From NCBI GenBank assembly GCA_022766825.1, contig JALEQE010000170.1:1-38291 (forward strand): a stretch of DNA of 38,291 nt, written 5' to 3'. The notes beneath the pieces were generated by a model. It saw only the letters and a list, made by a program, of their open reading frames with translations. It had not been told where the DNA came from and ran no database searches. The translations under genes and the position numbers were made by a program. Below, one piece after another: positions 2,220 through 10,029 of this stretch. Source of the DNA: Oscillospiraceae bacterium. Lineage in GTDB: Bacteria; Bacillota; Clostridia; Oscillospirales; Ruminococcaceae. Each line of letters opens with the position of its first letter. The first letter of the stretch is position 1.

Positions 2220-2977
2220 TGTGCGCCCCCCGCGTATTTCATAAGCGACGCTATCTTCTTGTTCAGATTGTCGATAACAAAGCTCTTAACATAATCATCG
2301 GCAGGGTGAGCGAGTATTTCCTGCGGAGTTCCTATCTGATGAATTTTCGCGTTGCCCATAACCATTATACGGTCGCTCATCGCGAACGCCTCTTCCTGGT
2401 CGTGCGTTATGTAAATCATCGTGGTGTGCATTTCGTTCTGTATGCGTTTGAGTTCCTCGCGCAAGGATAGACGCGTCGCGGCGTCAAGCGCGCTCATCGG
2501 TTCATCGAGAAGTATTATTTTCGGAGAAAGCGCAAGCGTTCTCGCAATTGCCACACGCTGCATTTGTCCGCCCGACAGCTCCGAGGGGTATTTGTTGATA
2601 TGTTCGGAAAGCCCCACTTGTTCAATAAGGCGCATAGCCGTTTCGTGGGCCTTTGATTTCAGTTCGGGACGGAATTTCATCGCATATTCCACGTTGCGCA
2701 GAACTGTCATATTCTCGAACAGCGCGTAATTCTGAAATACAATTCCCATTTCACGCTTATCGGGAGAGGCTTTTGTTATGTCTTTTCCGTCAAGCGTTAT
2801 CGTACCCGAATCGGCGCGGACAAGTCCGATTAGGATACGCAAGAGTGTGGTTTTTCCGCAGCCCGACGGTCCGAGTATCGACAAAAACTCTCCGCCCTCT
2901 GCCTCAAAATTTATATCGCACAGCGCTTCCTTGCCGTCAAATTTTTTATTGAGATTTTTAACTACCAATGATTCCAC
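2216..2977 (-). CDS. ABC importer ATP-binding protein (PotA/FbpC-like)
   Basis: This 253-residue nucleotide-binding subunit has Walker A GPSGCGKTT, signature LSGGQMQR, Walker B IILLDEP and the switch His in YITHD. The strongest resemblance is to the spermidine/iron/phosphonate (PotA/FbpC/PhnT) class. The C-terminal regulatory extension usual in PotA (about 100 residues) is almost absent, so this is a short-form member. It follows the lipoprotein gene after a 77-bp gap holding a stem-loop and overlaps the permease gene by 4 nt. It powers uptake through the permease at 627-2219. Confidence 0.88.
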   Translation of the reverse strand: MESLVVKNLNKKFDGKEALCDINFEAEGGEFLSILGPSGCGKTTLLRILIGLVRADSGTITLDGKDITKASPDKREMGIVFQNYALFENMTVLRNVEYAMKFRPELKSKAHETAMRLIEQVGLSEHINKYPSELSGGQMQRVAIARTLALSPKIILLDEPMSALDAATRLSLREELKRIQNEMHTTMIYITHDQEEAFAMSDRIMVMGNAKIHQIGTPQEILAHPADDYVKSFVIDNLNKKIASLMKYAGGAQ

Positions 2978-3004
2978 AGAACCGCTCCTTTATTATAACT
3001 AATA

Positions 3005-3035
3005 CAATACCGCACACAATTCCTGTACGGTATTG
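3005..3035 (-). promoter_or_regulatory. Stem-loop between lipoprotein and ATPase genes
   Basis: CAATACCG (3005-3012) pairs with CGGTATTG (3028-3035) around a 15-nt loop. No T-run follows on the minus strand. It therefore looks like an mRNA-stabilising or processing hairpin that keeps the upstream binding-protein message abundant, rather than a full terminator. Confidence 0.5.
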
Positions 3036-3054
3036 CTTATCTATTTATTTGTTA

Positions 3055-4047
3055 TTAGTGATTCCACTTATCGAGAAGAGCCTCTTTCTTGCTCATATCG
3101 GTGATTCCGTCCATATTGCCGTAAGGAACATCTTTCGGGAAGCTCTTCAACTCGCAAGCCGCCTGATTTTTGAAAATCTTTTCGGGCATATACAGCTTTT
3201 TGTCTTCGGGTATTACATCACTTACGATATACTTGAACACCTTCATAATATCTTCGTCTTTTTCTTTGCCCGCGATAACCGCGCTTGAATAAGTTGTATA
3301 AGGCGCGCCTTCTTTAAAGAACGTAATTGTAAAATCCGAACCCTTGTCGATTTCTTTCGCCGCCTGGAAAGTCATTCCAAGACCGATAGCCGCCTCGCCC
3401 TGTATCAAAGCCTTAACGGGACCCGAACCGGAAGACGTGAAACCTTGACCCGAAATATTCTCCGCGAGCTTATCGAAATACTCAAAAGCCTTATCTTCGC
3501 CGCGTTCGTTTACCATATTCAACAGGAAAATATATCCCGTACCCGACGACTTGGGGTTGGGCATAGAAACAAGTCCCTTGTATTCGGGTTTGAGCAAATC
3601 GTCATAAGAAGTTGGAACGGGAACACCCTTTTCATCAAGCAATTTCTTGTTGATGATAATAGCGCCGCTCATCAGAGCTTCGGGAACATATTTTTTGCTC
3701 TCGGGAACATAATCATCAACAAACACACTAAAATCGATATCGTCAAGCGTGGCAAGATTGTCACTGACTTTTTCGGCGGAAAGTGATTCCATCTCATAAA
3801 TGATATCAATATCGGAATCTTTACCCTCCGCAGCTACCTTTGCCGCTAAATCGCCGGTAGTGATATATGAAACCTTTATATCATATTCGGGGAATTTCTC
3901 GTCAAGCATTTTCTGAATGTTTTCGTTTCTGTAATCCTCAGCGGCGGAATAAACATTTATCGTTTTCTTCTTCCCGCTGCCGCAGCCTGTAAACATACCG
4001 CAACACATTACAGCCGCCATAACTCCTGCAATAATTCTTTTTTTCAT
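3055..4047 (-). CDS. Extracellular solute-binding lipoprotein of the importer
   Basis: The 330-residue protein starts with a lipoprotein signal (MKKRIIAGVMAAVMCCGM, then FTGC), with Cys22 as the likely lipidated residue. The mature part is a type-2 periplasmic-binding fold like FbpA/PhnS: KTINVYSAAED at the first strand, a long DIDIIYEMESL segment, and the SMPNPKSSGTGY stretch typical of this class. It captures the substrate outside the membrane and delivers it to the fused permease. The start is supported by AAAGGAG 8 nt upstream, and the gene begins 20 bp after the LicC-like gene. The ligand is unknown; the iron-binding Tyr pair of FbpA could not be assigned by eye. Confidence 0.85.
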   Translation of the reverse strand: MKKRIIAGVMAAVMCCGMFTGCGSGKKKTINVYSAAEDYRNENIQKMLDEKFPEYDIKVSYITTGDLAAKVAAEGKDSDIDIIYEMESLSAEKVSDNLATLDDIDFSVFVDDYVPESKKYVPEALMSGAIIINKKLLDEKGVPVPTSYDDLLKPEYKGLVSMPNPKSSGTGYIFLLNMVNERGEDKAFEYFDKLAENISGQGFTSSGSGPVKALIQGEAAIGLGMTFQAAKEIDKGSDFTITFFKEGAPYTTYSSAVIAGKEKDEDIMKVFKYIVSDVIPEDKKLYMPEKIFKNQAACELKSFPKDVPYGNMDGITDMSKKEALLDKWNH

Positions 4048-4977: not shown

Positions 4978-5077
4978 GGCGCAAAAATCGCGCCTGTATT
5001 GATATCAACGAAACACATTATAACACACACTTTTGTTTTTGTCAATAGTTTTTGTACCATTTATGTAAAATTTTACA
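4978..5077 (-). promoter_or_regulatory. Promoter and palindromes of the LicC/importer operon
   Basis: On the minus strand TTGACA (5045-5040), a 17-bp spacer and TATAAT (5022-5017) form a consensus promoter. A perfect 14-bp palindrome, TGTAAAATTTTACA (5064-5077), lies just upstream of the -35 box. A perfect 10-bp palindrome, TTGATATCAA (4999-5008), covers the start region. The leader can fold into GGCGC/GCGCC (4978-4994). These are good operator candidates, possibly for the winged helix encoded next door. Confidence 0.7.
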
Positions 5078-5231
5078 GTAAAACGAAACATTTTGCAAAC
5101 TTTGAGCGAGTATTATTATAACCGCAATTCTCCGCAATATAAAGCCGCGTATGCTTGTTTTACGCAAACACACGCGACACAACAATATACAATTTCCACA
5201 AGCGAACCTGTTTCAACAAGCACAAGTTTGT

Positions 5232-5699
5232 CTATTTTTCAGACAGAATTACAACAGCATTTGCGCCTATTCCTTTTCCCGAAAGACCCAAACCTTCCTC
5301 GGTTGTTGCCTTGACAGAAACGCGGTTTATTTCGCACCCGAATGCCGCCGCAAGATTTTCGCGCATTTTTTGTATATACGGCGCGAGTTTCGGTTTTTCA
5401 GCGATAATCGTTATATCAAGATTTCCGAGAACATAACCGCTCTCGGTCATTTTCCCGATAACCTCGCGCAAAAGTCCCATACTGTCCGCGCCCTTGTATT
5501 TCGGGTCGCTGTCGGGGAACAGATGCCCAATATCGCCCAAAGCAAGCGCACCGAGTATCGCGTCCATAAGCGCGTGCACGGCAACGTCGGCGTCCGAATG
5601 TCCGAGAAGGCCGAGTTCATACGGAATTTCAACTCCGCACAGGACAAGCCGCCTGTTCTCGGTTAGGCGGTGTACGTCATAGCCGAAACCTATTCTCAT
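5232..5699 (-). CDS. ispF: 2-C-methyl-D-erythritol 2,4-cyclodiphosphate synthase
   Basis: IspF closes the cyclic diphosphate of methylerythritol in the MEP isoprenoid pathway. I start at the internal ATG (5699), giving 155 residues, the normal size; the longer upstream frame adds unrelated sequence. [12 protein letters not shown] supplies the metal ligands Asp8 and His10, LLGHSDADV supplies the third ligand, and [10 protein letters not shown] and [17 protein letters not shown] are family signatures. The start overlaps the ispD stop as ATGA, so the two consecutive cytosolic steps on either side of the separate kinase IspE are translationally coupled. No clear terminator follows, although a weak GTCTG/TAGAC hairpin overlaps the stop. 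Confidence 0.95.
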
Positions 5700-6394
5700 A
5701 TGATTTTCACCGTCCGCTTGTTGCGGTAAACAGCCTCCGCCGCAATTAAATCCTCGGGACGGGTTATTTTCATATTGCACCCGCCGATTTCGGTTATTTT
5801 CACATACTCTCCGCAAAGTTCAAGAATACTGCTGTCATCGGTCGCGTTTTCCGCCGCCTTTTGGTCGACTTTTTCAAGGCACGACAAATACAGCTTTTTA
5901 AGGAACACCTGCGGCGTCTGCGCGTAATACAAATTCGCGCGCGGCGGCGTACTTTCGATAAATCCGTTACTGCTTACCGCTTTTATCGTGTCAACCGCTC
6001 GAATAGCCGCGATTGCCGCCTTGTATTTCTCCGCGTCAGCGAACACTTTTTCAATATCGTCAGTTTCTATAAGCGGACGCGCGCCATCGTGTACGGCGAT
6101 ATAATCCGCCTTTGCCGACACGGACGGAATACAGTTCCTTACGGACTGCATACGGGTTTCCCCGCCCGCGACAACCGCCGTAAGCTTTGTCACGCCGAAA
6201 TTACGCGCAAGCTTTTCATAGCGCGCGGTATCATCGGCGGGCGCGGCAATAATTATCTCGCCGACCTTTTCCGACTTGTTAAATTTCAGCGCGCTCATCA
6301 CAAAAACAGGCGTATCGCCGATTTTTTCAAGCTGTTTGTTTACACCGTTCATTCGCGCGGAAGAACCCGCCGCGACTATTATAACGGATACCAT
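5696..6394 (-). CDS. ispD: 2-C-methyl-D-erythritol 4-phosphate cytidylyltransferase
   Basis: IspD attaches CMP to methylerythritol phosphate in the MEP pathway. The 232-residue protein begins [15 protein letters not shown], the CTP-binding loop, with the essential Lys in NKQLEKI. Other family motifs are [29 protein letters not shown] and MKITRPEDL near the end. It lies 28 bp after pheA and overlaps ispF by 4 nt. Length and motifs are complete and nothing unusual is seen. Confidence 0.95.
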
Positions 6395-6422: not shown

Positions 6423-7553
6423 TCAATTTGAAAAATTTCCGTGGAACTTGAAATAATTCAGTTCATCACTGAGATTTTTCATCAGTTTGCGGATTTTAGG
6501 CTCGTTCACATTGCCCGTAAACTCTATATAGAACATATAATCGTTGGGATATTTCATTTTAACGTCAATCGGCAACGGCTTTGACTGAATTTTAGTCATA
6601 GAAAGTCCGTTCACGGCGAACTTCGTAAGCAGTCTGTAAAGCGCGCCCGAAATATTCGGTATCGACAGCGAAACCGCAATCTTATCCGCTTTTTCATAAA
6701 CCTCGATATTCTTTGAAATGCAGATAAAACGCGTGGAATTGTTAGGGTCGGTCGCGATATGCTTTCTGACAACGTCAATGCCGTGCATTTCGGCACATTC
6801 CTCGGAGCAGATACAACCTAATTCGCCGCTTGGGTTTTCCGCCACCATTTTTGCCGCCGAAGCATTGTTGTGATACGGGATAACGGTCAAATTGCCGCGC
6901 TCTCCGATATATTCCGCGCATTGACGTATTGCCTGCTCGTGACCGAAAAGTATCTTAATATCGTTTTCCGAAACTCCCTTTTTCGCCGCCAAAACGTGCG
7001 CACACTCAACCGTTGTTGTGCGGCAGATATACACATTATGCCGTTCCAAACGGTCCATATTCGCGGTAACTTCTCCCGCCGTTGAGTTTTCAACGGGAAT
7101 TATGCCATAATCCACATCGCCGTTTTCCACAGCGGAGAACACCTCGTCAAATGACGCGTAATAGCTTATGTTTCCGTTATCGAACAGTTGTCTCGCCGCC
7201 GCGTGTCCGTAAGAGCCTTCAATTCCCTGCACCGCGACAGATGGACGCGGTTTTGCCTCTTTTATATACGGAATCTCGACATCGGGCGTTATCTCGTTAA
7301 TCTGAGATACCTTGGATATATCCATTATATTCATAAACAGGAACGCCGCGCTTTTCCGCAGTTCCTCGGGAGTGTTTTTCTTCACCGCGTCGATTATCGC
7401 TTTCTCACGGTCACTCTGAAACACAACCATATTATTGGCGGCTTTGTATTTCGCGACATCTGTCGCAAGGTTCATACGCTCCAAGAACAAATCAAGAATT
7501 TTATCGTCTATTTTGTCGATCTTTGCCCTTATCTCGCTCAAATCCATCATCAT
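6423..7553 (-). CDS. pheA: P-protein: chorismate mutase/prephenate dehydratase
   Basis: This 376-residue bifunctional enzyme converts chorismate to prephenate and then phenylpyruvate for phenylalanine synthesis. Residues 1-90 are an AroQ-type mutase (LSEIRAKIDKIDDKILDLFL, with QSDREKAI). Residues about 108-285 are the dehydratase (QGIEGSYGHAAA, GIIPVENSTAGEV, and the TRF catalytic motif in NSTRFICISK). A C-terminal ACT domain (ISGALYRLLTKF, MTKIQSKPLP) should bind Phe for feedback inhibition. Three consecutive ATGs are possible starts; 7553 overlaps the kinase-like gene as ATGA. Being the second gene of an operon led by a PASTA pseudokinase is unusual for pheA. Confidence 0.93.
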   Translation of the reverse strand: MMMDLSEIRAKIDKIDDKILDLFLERMNLATDVAKYKAANNMVVFQSDREKAIIDAVKKNTPEELRKSAAFLFMNIMDISKVSQINEITPDVEIPYIKEAKPRPSVAVQGIEGSYGHAAARQLFDNGNISYYASFDEVFSAVENGDVDYGIIPVENSTAGEVTANMDRLERHNVYICRTTTVECAHVLAAKKGVSENDIKILFGHEQAIRQCAEYIGERGNLTVIPYHNNASAAKMVAENPSGELGCICSEECAEMHGIDVVRKHIATDPNNSTRFICISKNIEVYEKADKIAVSLSIPNISGALYRLLTKFAVNGLSMTKIQSKPLPIDVKMKYPNDYMFYIEFTGNVNEPKIRKLMKNLSDELNYFKFHGNFSN

Positions 7554-9289
7554 ACCCCCGCAACATAAACCGTAACGGTTTCGCCTTCACTTACGTTGAT
7601 TATATCGCCGACGTCTTTACTGCACTTTACCACATAGCCTTTTCTCACACCGTCAACGTGCGTTTCAACTTCTTCTATGGAATATTTTATGTTCAGAGAG
7701 GTCAGCTTTGCCACATAATCCGAACTGCTTTGTCCGTTATAATCGGGCAGTGCCACCGCGCTTGAACCTTTGCTTACCGTAACGCTTATCTGCGTTCCTT
7801 TCGGAACCATAGTACCCTCTGCGATAGATTGGTCGTACATCAGTCCCGCGCGGTGTGTCTCGGAATATTCGTATGTCGGAACGAACGTAAACAATCCCTC
7901 AAAACGTGAAACCGTACTGTCATAGCGGCGCTCGGTGAAATCCGGAACTTTAACAAGATCCTCCGGCTCGGAAACGCTTGTTTCCGAAGAAGCGGCGTCG
8001 CTTACGGATGAATTAGGCTCGGAACTGTCCGCAACTGTTTGCGAAGAAGTATCCGATGACGTTCCCGCGCCGTTTGCGACAGCGCTTGTCTGCGAAGAAA
8101 CGCCGCTTTCGGACGATGTTACAGACGGAGTTTCGGGAGTAAATACTCCGGACAAAGAAAGTGCAAGCGCCACCGCAAACAATATCAGCGTCGCACCTGC
8201 AATTATCAGCACGGAAAGAGTTTTTCTGCGCTCTTTGATCTGTTTTTTCATCCGTTTCTGTTCCTTGGGCGACATACTGTTCTGCGAATTTTTGTCAGCC
8301 GTTGTTTTAGAAGCGTTCTCATCGGATGAAAACCTGGGCGGCGCAAAAAGACTGCTTACAAAATCGCTGATATCGCGTATTCTCTGATCCTGAGAAAACG
8401 TCATACCGTGCATAATTACTTTCGATACATTTGCGGGAACATTCCTGTTCACAAGCATAGGTTCGGGCATATCCGCGATTTTGTCAGAGCCGGCGTCAAA
8501 CGGTGTTATTCCCGTCAGGACGCGATACAGCACCGCCGCAATTCCGTACACATCCGTCCAAGTGCCGTTCATTTCGTCACTGGTGTACTGTTCGGGCGCG
8601 GCATACCCGTTGTATATTTCACACGTCAGCTCGGTATTTGTGGTTCGCGCCGCGGAAATGCAGAAGCCCGTGAGCTTAAGTTTCATTTTATCCGTAACAA
8701 ATATCGTCTGTGGAGAAAGTCCGCGGTGGATTATCCCTGCGCGATGAACAAGAGAAAGCGTGGTGAACACCGGCGGGAAAAGTTCCTTAACCTGATCCCA
8801 TGTAAGACCGCCCGAAGAGTTCGCGAGGAAAGTTTTAAGCGAGATACCGTTAATGAACTCAAACACGGCATAGCAGGTGTTGTTTTCGCAGAATACATCA
8901 AGCACCGCCTGAATGTGCGCCATATCGCTGAGCTTCATAAGAGTGCGGTTCAGGTCCTCAAACTCGGACAAATTCGTCTTGTAGAGAGGACTGTTCTGCG
9001 AATTGACCGAGATAACGGTTTCGCCTTTTCTTCTCGAACAAAGCGTGTCGGGCATAAATTCCTTTATTGTAACCTTTGTTTTCGCGGCAGTATCATAACC
9101 TATGTAAACAGCTCCCTCGCCGTTGTACGACAGCAATCGCCCGACAATATAGCGATTGTTCAAAAGCGTTTTCGGCGCAAGATAGGTCGGGATATACGGG
9201 TCATCATCGTTGTAGCCGCATAGCTTGCACGGACCGTCATACGTTTTATCGTTCATACAGCCCATACAAAGTGTGGTTTCGGTCAGCAT
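7550..9289 (-). CDS. PASTA-domain membrane pseudokinase
   Basis: The 579-residue protein has a zinc-ribbon-like start (Cys8, 11, 21, 24), a Ser/Thr kinase fold (about 45-315), a cytosolic basic linker, one membrane segment (about 358-380), a Ser-rich extracellular linker and two PASTA repeats (about 447-507 and 512-577). PASTA domains bind muropeptides or lipid II. The ATP lysine is present (VTIK76) and so is APEQY, but the catalytic loop reads HRGLSPQ (188-194) where kinases have HRD, and the Mg motif reads LTGF (206-209) where DFG belongs. Both catalytic Asps are thus absent, which predicts a pseudokinase. It leads an operon with pheA, ispD and ispF. The start is supported by AAGGAG upstream. 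A role as wall-precursor sensor is inference. Confidence 0.88.
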   Translation of the reverse strand: MLTETTLCMGCMNDKTYDGPCKLCGYNDDDPYIPTYLAPKTLLNNRYIVGRLLSYNGEGAVYIGYDTAAKTKVTIKEFMPDTLCSRRKGETVISVNSQNSPLYKTNLSEFEDLNRTLMKLSDMAHIQAVLDVFCENNTCYAVFEFINGISLKTFLANSSGGLTWDQVKELFPPVFTTLSLVHRAGIIHRGLSPQTIFVTDKMKLKLTGFCISAARTTNTELTCEIYNGYAAPEQYTSDEMNGTWTDVYGIAAVLYRVLTGITPFDAGSDKIADMPEPMLVNRNVPANVSKVIMHGMTFSQDQRIRDISDFVSSLFAPPRFSSDENASKTTADKNSQNSMSPKEQKRMKKQIKERRKTLSVLIIAGATLILFAVALALSLSGVFTPETPSVTSSESGVSSQTSAVANGAGTSSDTSSQTVADSSEPNSSVSDAASSETSVSEPEDLVKVPDFTERRYDSTVSRFEGLFTFVPTYEYSETHRAGLMYDQSIAEGTMVPKGTQISVTVSKGSSAVALPDYNGQSSSDYVAKLTSLNIKYSIEEVETHVDGVRKGYVVKCSKDVGDIINVSEGETVTVYVAGV

Positions 9290-9344: not shown

Positions 9345-9373
9345 AATATACACCAAAAAACTCAAAATGTCAA
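9345..9373 (-). promoter_or_regulatory. Promoter of the pseudokinase-pheA-ispDF operon
   Basis: On the minus strand TTGACA (9373-9368), a 17-bp spacer and TATATT (9350-9345) precede the gene by about 55 bp. Confidence 0.7.
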
Positions 9374-9618: not shown

Positions 9619-10029
9619 ATGAGTTTTTTGGACGATGTAATCACCACCACTAAAAATGTTGCGGCAACAGCCGGCAAAAAGACAGACGAGGCAATCAAGA
9701 TCTCCAAGCTGAAAATCAAATCCTCACAGCTTAACAACGACATAAAGAATAAGTATGAGAAACTCGGCGCGTTGGTTTACGAAATGGCAAAATCGGGAGA
9801 AAAGGACACCGAGGCTTTCGACGCGGCTATTGCGGAAATTGATACAGCGAAGACGGAGCTTGCCGATATTGAGAAACAGCTTGATGAGCTGAAAGGCAAA
9901 GTTGCCTGCCCGTCCTGCGGACTTAAAACGGACAACGACAATACTTTCTGCCCCAAGTGCGGCGCAAAGCTTCCTGAAAAACCCAAAGAGGAAGAAAAAC
10001 CTGTCGTTGACGAAAACAAGGAAGACTAA
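9619..10029 (+). CDS. Small coiled-coil protein with C-terminal zinc ribbon
   Basis: The start at 9619 is fixed by AAAGGAG 9 nt upstream and gives 136 residues. Residues about 1-95 are amphipathic and charged, likely a long helical hairpin or coiled coil (KISKLKIKSSQLNNDIKNKY, then AKTELADIEKQLDELKG). Residues 97-114 form a zinc ribbon: CPSC (97-100) and CPKC (111-114). The tail is rich in Lys and Glu. There is no signal peptide or membrane segment. Proteins of this build are common in Clostridia but have no assigned function that I know. It is monocistronic, with its own promoter and terminator, and divergent from a kinase-like protein that also starts with a CxxC/CxxC ribbon. Confidence 0.85.
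   Translation: MSFLDDVITTTKNVAATAGKKTDEAIKISKLKIKSSQLNNDIKNKYEKLGALVYEMAKSGEKDTEAFDAAIAEIDTAKTELADIEKQLDELKGKVACPSCGLKTDNDNTFCPKCGAKLPEKPKEEEKPVVDENKED

Follow-up and report, generated by a model that had tools for sequence, protein, structure and literature searches.

Receptors with PASTA repeats are usually read as kinases, and bacterial pseudokinases have until now been described in other settings: a 2025 review lists five all-pseudokinase bacterial families and two mixed ones (PMC12599244), describes none with PASTA repeats, a zinc ribbon or an HxG/GF active site, and names PASTA once, in its reference list. We have analyzed a 38,291-nucleotide stretch of DNA from an Oscillospiraceae bacterium (assembly GCA_022766825.1, contig JALEQE010000170.1; hereafter the window), which encodes a 579-amino-acid PASTA receptor on its minus strand. 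This protein resembles the PASTA Ser/Thr kinases PrkC, StkP and PknB in its kinase fold, single transmembrane helix, PASTA repeats and membrane topology, but differs from them in carrying a zinc ribbon, in having lost its catalytic residues, in falling into another clade and in sharing its genome with an orthodox PrkC. Two whole families of gut-type bacteria carry a second, nearly always single-copy PASTA receptor beside the ordinary PrkC, an old gene and not a broken copy. We consider the protein to be a non-catalytic membrane receptor or scaffold, with a probability of roughly 0.7.

Domain layout and active site of the receptor

The receptor and its parts are as follows.

7550..9289, minus: PASTA pseudokinase receptor, 579 amino acids (open reading frame, Pfam Pkinase and PASTA, 36 genus sequences, A3 family profile)
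9218..9268, minus: N-terminal zinc ribbon CMGC...CKLC (C8, C11, C21, C24), a zinc site predicted from the Cys pattern
8330..9169, minus: pseudokinase domain, residues 41-320 (Pfam PF00069)
9062..9064, minus: beta3 Lys76, kept within the genus and mostly Arg across the wider family (genus and family alignments)
8951..8953, minus: Leu113 at the alphaC Glu position (alignment to active relatives)
8720..8728, minus: HRG replacing HRD, residues 188-190, Gly190 codon GGA (codons, genus and family alignments)
8660..8668, minus: GFC replacing DFG, residues 208-210, codons GGC TTC TGC (codons, alignment to active relatives)
8144..8212, minus: transmembrane helix, residues ~360-382, with a basic juxtamembrane stretch before it (sequence, model)
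7769..7954, minus: PASTA repeat 1 (Pfam; predicted local distance difference test score, pLDDT, ~79-90)
7559..7756, minus: PASTA repeat 2 (Pfam; pLDDT ~72-91)

The reading frame begins at the ATG at 9289, which has a GGAG ribosome-binding site, and the kinase domain and two PASTA repeats that an earlier note on this DNA had placed in it are confirmed by Pfam: the Pkinase match scores 71.5 bits against a cut-off of 31.7, identifying a kinase fold by sequence, and both PASTA repeats lie above their cut-off. From the N-terminus the order is zinc ribbon, kinase domain, basic juxtamembrane stretch, hydrophobic helix, Ser/Thr-rich linker and PASTA repeats, and a predicted model has a long helix (341-379) around the transmembrane segment. 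Extracytoplasmic PASTA repeats after a single transmembrane helix are the arrangement of the PASTA Ser/Thr kinases, and PASTA is the sole extracytoplasmic domain that Pfam finds. In one genus genome (locus L050, genome G032) the receptor frame is 709 amino acids long and a further PASTA match (query 445-576) lies directly downstream; this receptor seems to have extra PASTA repeats.

The HRD motif is replaced by HRG at 188-190 through a GGA codon, as the earlier note had observed. The same note read the DFG motif as TGF (207-209), which is off by one residue: gapless alignment of LKLIDFGAAR from active zinc-ribbon kinases with LKLTGFCISAA, and likewise alignment with the kinase PpkA, places DFG on G208-F209-C210. 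The lost Asp is thus Gly208 (GGC) and not Thr207 (ACG), and the claim that both catalytic aspartates are gone from this protein stands with that site corrected. The spacing from HRG to GFC equals that from HRD to DFG in active kinases. Further features went unremarked before, namely the zinc ribbon, a missing alphaC Glu, a catalytic-loop Asn replaced by Thr195 and a lost Gly-rich loop, which now reads SxNGEG (S54, N56, E58). D200, in the turn that links HRG to GFC, is one candidate for a substitute catalytic Asp; it is not conserved outside the genus (12/78) and was rejected. Judged from the alignment alone, no other conserved Asp replaces the lost ones.

These losses extend across the family. 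The HRD Asp is absent from all 172 sequences compared, comprising 36 non-redundant genus sequences, 77 A3 members from other genera and 59 members from further species, an answer to the question whether HRG is conserved in orthologues and a consistent loss of at least one of the catalytic residues (beta3 Lys, HRD Asp, DFG Asp) whose absence defines bacterial pseudokinases. The last group comes from 60 additional sequences picked mostly from the lowest-scoring genomes: 59 are family members, none with the HRD Asp. The sixtieth (L268) was rejected as an HRD-bearing member: its genome has a full-length pseudokinase match of its own, and L268 is an additional zinc-ribbon kinase of the active type. 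Within the genus, G190 and T195 are present in 36/36 and residue 208 is G, S, C or N, never D, so the changes are not due to chance or sequencing error. The Gly that replaces the HRD Asp is itself conserved (71 of 82 pseudokinase domains aligned and 51 of the 60 additional sequences), which suggests selection rather than drift.

A comparison of the 82 pseudokinase domains with 32 active zinc-ribbon kinases from the same and related genomes sharpens the picture. In the active kinases the Gly loop, the Lys, the alphaC Glu, the HRD Asp, the Asn and the DFG Asp are intact without exception (32/32); the alphaC Glu is found in 0/82 pseudokinases and the first Gly of the loop in 1/82. Position 58 is acidic in 80/82 pseudokinases and Phe in 32/32 active relatives, the beta3 position is distributed as K24/R53/H3/C2, and an acid at 58 occurs together with a base at 76 in 78/82. 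Outside the kinase core, PASTA and Pkinase domains are present in 78/78 members of an alignment built from an order-wide scan (394 genomes, 80 loci read), and all four zinc-ribbon Cys are kept in 77/78. In the orthologues at L106-L113 (genus g28) the HRD site is HRG and the DFG site has an Asp (IDFQ or VDFQ), which may reflect a halfway stage of decay or a metal site that has been kept.

The earlier note took the intact fold and the ATP-binding Lys as signs of ATP binding. Both Lys76 and the APEQY motif (231-235) are indeed present, but neither the alphaC Glu nor the Gly loop remains, and Lys76 becomes Arg in 53/82. A nucleotide-dependent switch, in which ATP is bound with or without metal and changes the conformation with no phosphate transfer, draws on the invariance of Lys76 in the genus (36/36), on a basic residue at 76 in 80/82 (His counted) and on a DFG Asp retained in 15/82. 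Set against these are the alphaC Glu missing from every domain, the replacement, in most domains, of the first two loop Gly and an acid at 58, near the expected phosphate site, in 80/82, and we regard such a switch as quite unlikely. The acid-base pair instead suggests, as a hypothesis, a nucleotide-free pocket that is predicted not to use ATP and in which E/D58 could face K/R76.

Constraint, ancestry and distribution

Purifying selection acts on the kinase domain. Between genus members the ratio of nonsynonymous to synonymous substitution rates (dN/dS), a rough measure here because synonymous sites are close to saturated, is ~0.07 in the zinc ribbon and ~0.086 in the kinase domain, rising to 0.21 in PASTA and 0.79 in the linker, and the mean identity of the kinase domain within the genus is 0.805. 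The loss of catalytic residues might by itself suggest that the gene is decaying, or that the change is recent or an error, but that reading is refuted by conservation: the loss is common to the 172 sequences, the open reading frames are long and intact and dN/dS is ~0.09. Strong conservation of the domain would also fit an enzyme repurposed for other chemistry, such as AMPylation or glutamylation (compare SelO and SidJ), and pseudokinases with new activities are known (PMC12599244). The metal-binding Asp, the Asn and the alphaC Glu are, however, not conserved family-wide and no constant catalytic set is visible, making this explanation very improbable.

A tree of 81 kinase domains, with PrkC proteins as outgroup, gathers the pseudokinases in a single clade (support in the Shimodaira-Hasegawa-like approximate likelihood ratio test, SH-aLRT, 100; 94 after removal of the motif columns). 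Its sister group is the active zinc-ribbon kinases, while PrkC forms a distant, separate clade (support 100). The nearest solved structure is that of PpkA (PDB 5hnv, 4.7e-24), ahead of StkP and PknB, and the PrkC/Stk1 equivalog profile NF033483 scores 179 against a cut-off of 450. Neither grouping of the kinase domain with PrkC nor an intact HRD and DFG, as expected of a PrkC-type protein, is found. These results identify the receptor as an inactivated zinc-ribbon kinase that bears PASTA repeats rather than as a PASTA kinase gone dead, and we rejected descent from the PASTA kinases since the domain groups with zinc-ribbon/PpkA-type kinases. The closest kinase-domain relatives are accordingly PpkA, a kinase of the type VI secretion system (T6SS), and the clostridial zinc-ribbon kinases with HRDISPDNI and DFGAAR motifs. 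The latter share with the receptor the zinc ribbon, the KE(Y/F)xP beta3 motif and EQY; they differ in keeping the catalytic set (32/32) and, in those inspected, in having no PASTA-like tail. The ancestor would have been an active, PpkA-like zinc-ribbon kinase whose catalytic residues were lost in a single event that predates the divergence of the two bacterial families; the pseudokinase, which now carries a transmembrane-PASTA tail, may have been maintained since then as a constrained docking domain.

Counting as present any full-length match at E <= 1e-110, with part of the matches read residue by residue, the receptor occurs in 142/149 genomes (91/94 genera) of the window's family and 110/120 genomes (98/107 genera) of a second family of the order, counts whose lowest full-length matches may include a few active zinc-ribbon kinases, as these score up to ~380-394 bits. 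Copy number in both families is nearly always one. The order scan found the pseudokinase gene in one genome of a third family (L145). The best matches elsewhere in the class are, where the motif was read, zinc-ribbon kinases with HRD intact and no recognizable PASTA tail.

Partners, function and gene neighborhood

The loss of the phosphotransfer residues from a domain that remains conserved implies action by contact, and the sequences thus favor the earlier note's proposal of a catalytically dead PASTA receptor that would act through binding. From PASTA biology (PMC6428115, PMC9674922), the repeats outside the cell would bind cell-wall material, and by analogy with the pseudokinases MviN and EssB (PMC12599244) the cytoplasmic zinc ribbon and pseudokinase would relay the state of the receptor by protein-protein contact instead of phosphotransfer. 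A separate active-type PASTA kinase with its phosphatase, which the earlier note had proposed looking for, is present: another contig of the same genome encodes an intact PrkC (three PASTA repeats, HRDIKSSN and DFG) right beside a PP2C phosphatase, and PrkC with a PP2C-like neighbor is found in 12/12 genus relatives examined and in two further genomes (G058 and G059). The most likely partners would be the co-resident PrkC and PP2C or their substrates, with the pseudokinase serving as a co-receptor or scaffold that tunes PrkC signaling; for PrkC itself we put this at somewhat less than an even chance. The fullest version of the model has a family of wall receptors, near-core and not yet described, each a dead zinc-ribbon kinase joined to PASTA repeats, acting as an obligatory PrkC co-receptor or decoy, its pocket locked by E/D58 and K/R76 and PASTA occupancy read purely by pseudokinase contacts. 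All of this together is rather doubtful.

A structural tether is a narrower form of receptor or scaffold, in which PASTA would place the protein at the wall or septum and the part inside the cell would recruit division or wall enzymes, with no role in kinase signaling. StkP and PknB are localized by their PASTA domains (PMC9674922), and the receptor's sole detected extracytoplasmic domain is PASTA. Nothing in the present data distinguishes a tether from the broader receptor or scaffold, but conservation is stronger in the kinase domain than in PASTA, and we consider the narrower form unlikely.

Several observations weigh against a non-catalytic receptor or scaffold that works with PrkC. We found no physical or genetic link between the pseudokinase gene and PrkC, which lie on different contigs, and no FHA-domain protein in the genome (assembly 87% complete), so that the MviN-FhaA route is unavailable in that form. 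In the same genomes the pseudokinase domain evolves faster than the PrkC kinase domain (mean identity 0.78 vs 0.93). The DFG Asp is retained in 15/82 domains and the catalytic-loop Asn in 26/82, and such members may still bind some metal or nucleotide. Finally, fold prediction, both at full length with 22 sequences and for the kinase part alone, gives the kinase domain a pLDDT of only ~35-40.

The genome also encodes a third PASTA protein (799-amino-acid frame, contig C164) and two further cytosolic kinase-like proteins. At C95 (L004:1036-2511 and 2529-3386, minus), a cytosolic kinase-like protein (HSDLSCNN...VIDID) adjoins a PP2C-like protein, which reads like a separate kinase-phosphatase pair.

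Neighbors across loci were determined by tblastn; in the window the features flanking the receptor gene are these.

9345..9373, minus: putative promoter TTGACA-17-TATATT, 11/12 (consensus scan)
6423..7553, minus: pheA (chorismate mutase and prephenate dehydratase), overlapping the receptor stop codon (Pfam; lineage-specific neighbor)
5696..6394, minus: ispD-like gene (position, synteny; lineage-specific neighbor)
5232..5702, minus: ispF-like gene (position, synteny; lineage-specific neighbor)

The promoter-like site ends 56 bases upstream of the receptor start codon. The gene order receptor-pheA-ispD-ispF given in the earlier note is correct, with the receptor stop codon overlapping the pheA ATG and the other two genes closely spaced after it; these we take to be ispD- and ispF-like from that note and family recognition rather than a profile scan. 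The proposed tie to isoprenoid and lipid-carrier supply fares less well. While pheA and ispD lie beside the receptor gene in 21/21 genus loci, pheA-ispD(-ispF) recurs in just one other genus (L106-L116), partly without ispD, and this restriction to two genera leaves the tie unsupported beyond shared gene order. An isoprenoid-operon link was rejected as a general rule: in other genera pfkA follows the pseudokinase gene at 7 loci and unrelated neighbors occur at others, and yebC precedes it at 4 loci in the window's family, 10 in the second family and in the third-family genome. Loci with yebC directly upstream on the same strand, in three families, include L137, L139-L141, L145, L148, L149, L154, L155, L157, L168, L170, L173 and L180. 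The yebC-adjacent site is possibly the ancestral position of the gene.

On the other side of the receptor gene, a divergent gene (9619-10029, plus) encodes a 136-amino-acid protein, helical toward its N-terminus and with a zinc ribbon (CPSCG...CPKCG) at its C-terminus; the gene is conserved beside that of the receptor at most loci of the genus. Immediately beyond the ispF-like gene, on its downstream side, are a sigma-70-type promoter match (5017-5045, minus; 12/12, TG before the -10) and a terminator-like hairpin of 14 pairs (5144-5178).

Comparison with known pseudokinases

If automatic pipelines label these proteins as Ser/Thr kinases, the label would be mistaken across hundreds of genomes. 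A receptor whose kinase domain cannot use the usual chemistry, present beside an ordinary PrkC, makes PASTA sensing without phosphotransfer directly testable. Among described pseudokinases, that of MviN/MurJ (ActPs3) with FhaA is similar in being a membrane pseudokinase tied to wall synthesis through protein recruitment (PMC12599244). ActPs3 is, however, actinobacterial, fused to a MurJ-type flippase, marked by an activation-loop deletion, devoid of PASTA and dependent on an FHA partner, and Pfam finds no MurJ-type flippase domain on the receptor. EssB/YukC of the type VII secretion system b (T7SSb) is likewise a Firmicutes transmembrane pseudokinase with a structural or scaffold role, but is part of a secretion system, is degraded in another way and has neither PASTA nor zinc ribbon. 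The DYD kinases and pseudokinases of actinobacteria and firmicutes share the change of the beta3 Lys to Arg and the loss of the alphaC Glu with most of the receptor family, which differs in always being without the HRD Asp. Compared by their descriptions, the five and two families of the 2025 review all mismatch the receptor family in motifs or domains. Our literature search found no description of the family; most subscription papers lay outside that search, and an earlier listing under another name, among the 42 named bacterial STK families of a recent classification, is possible. Bacterial pseudokinases are already known, and the PASTA and zinc-ribbon pseudokinases form an apparently undescribed family, set apart from the known ones by their descriptions.
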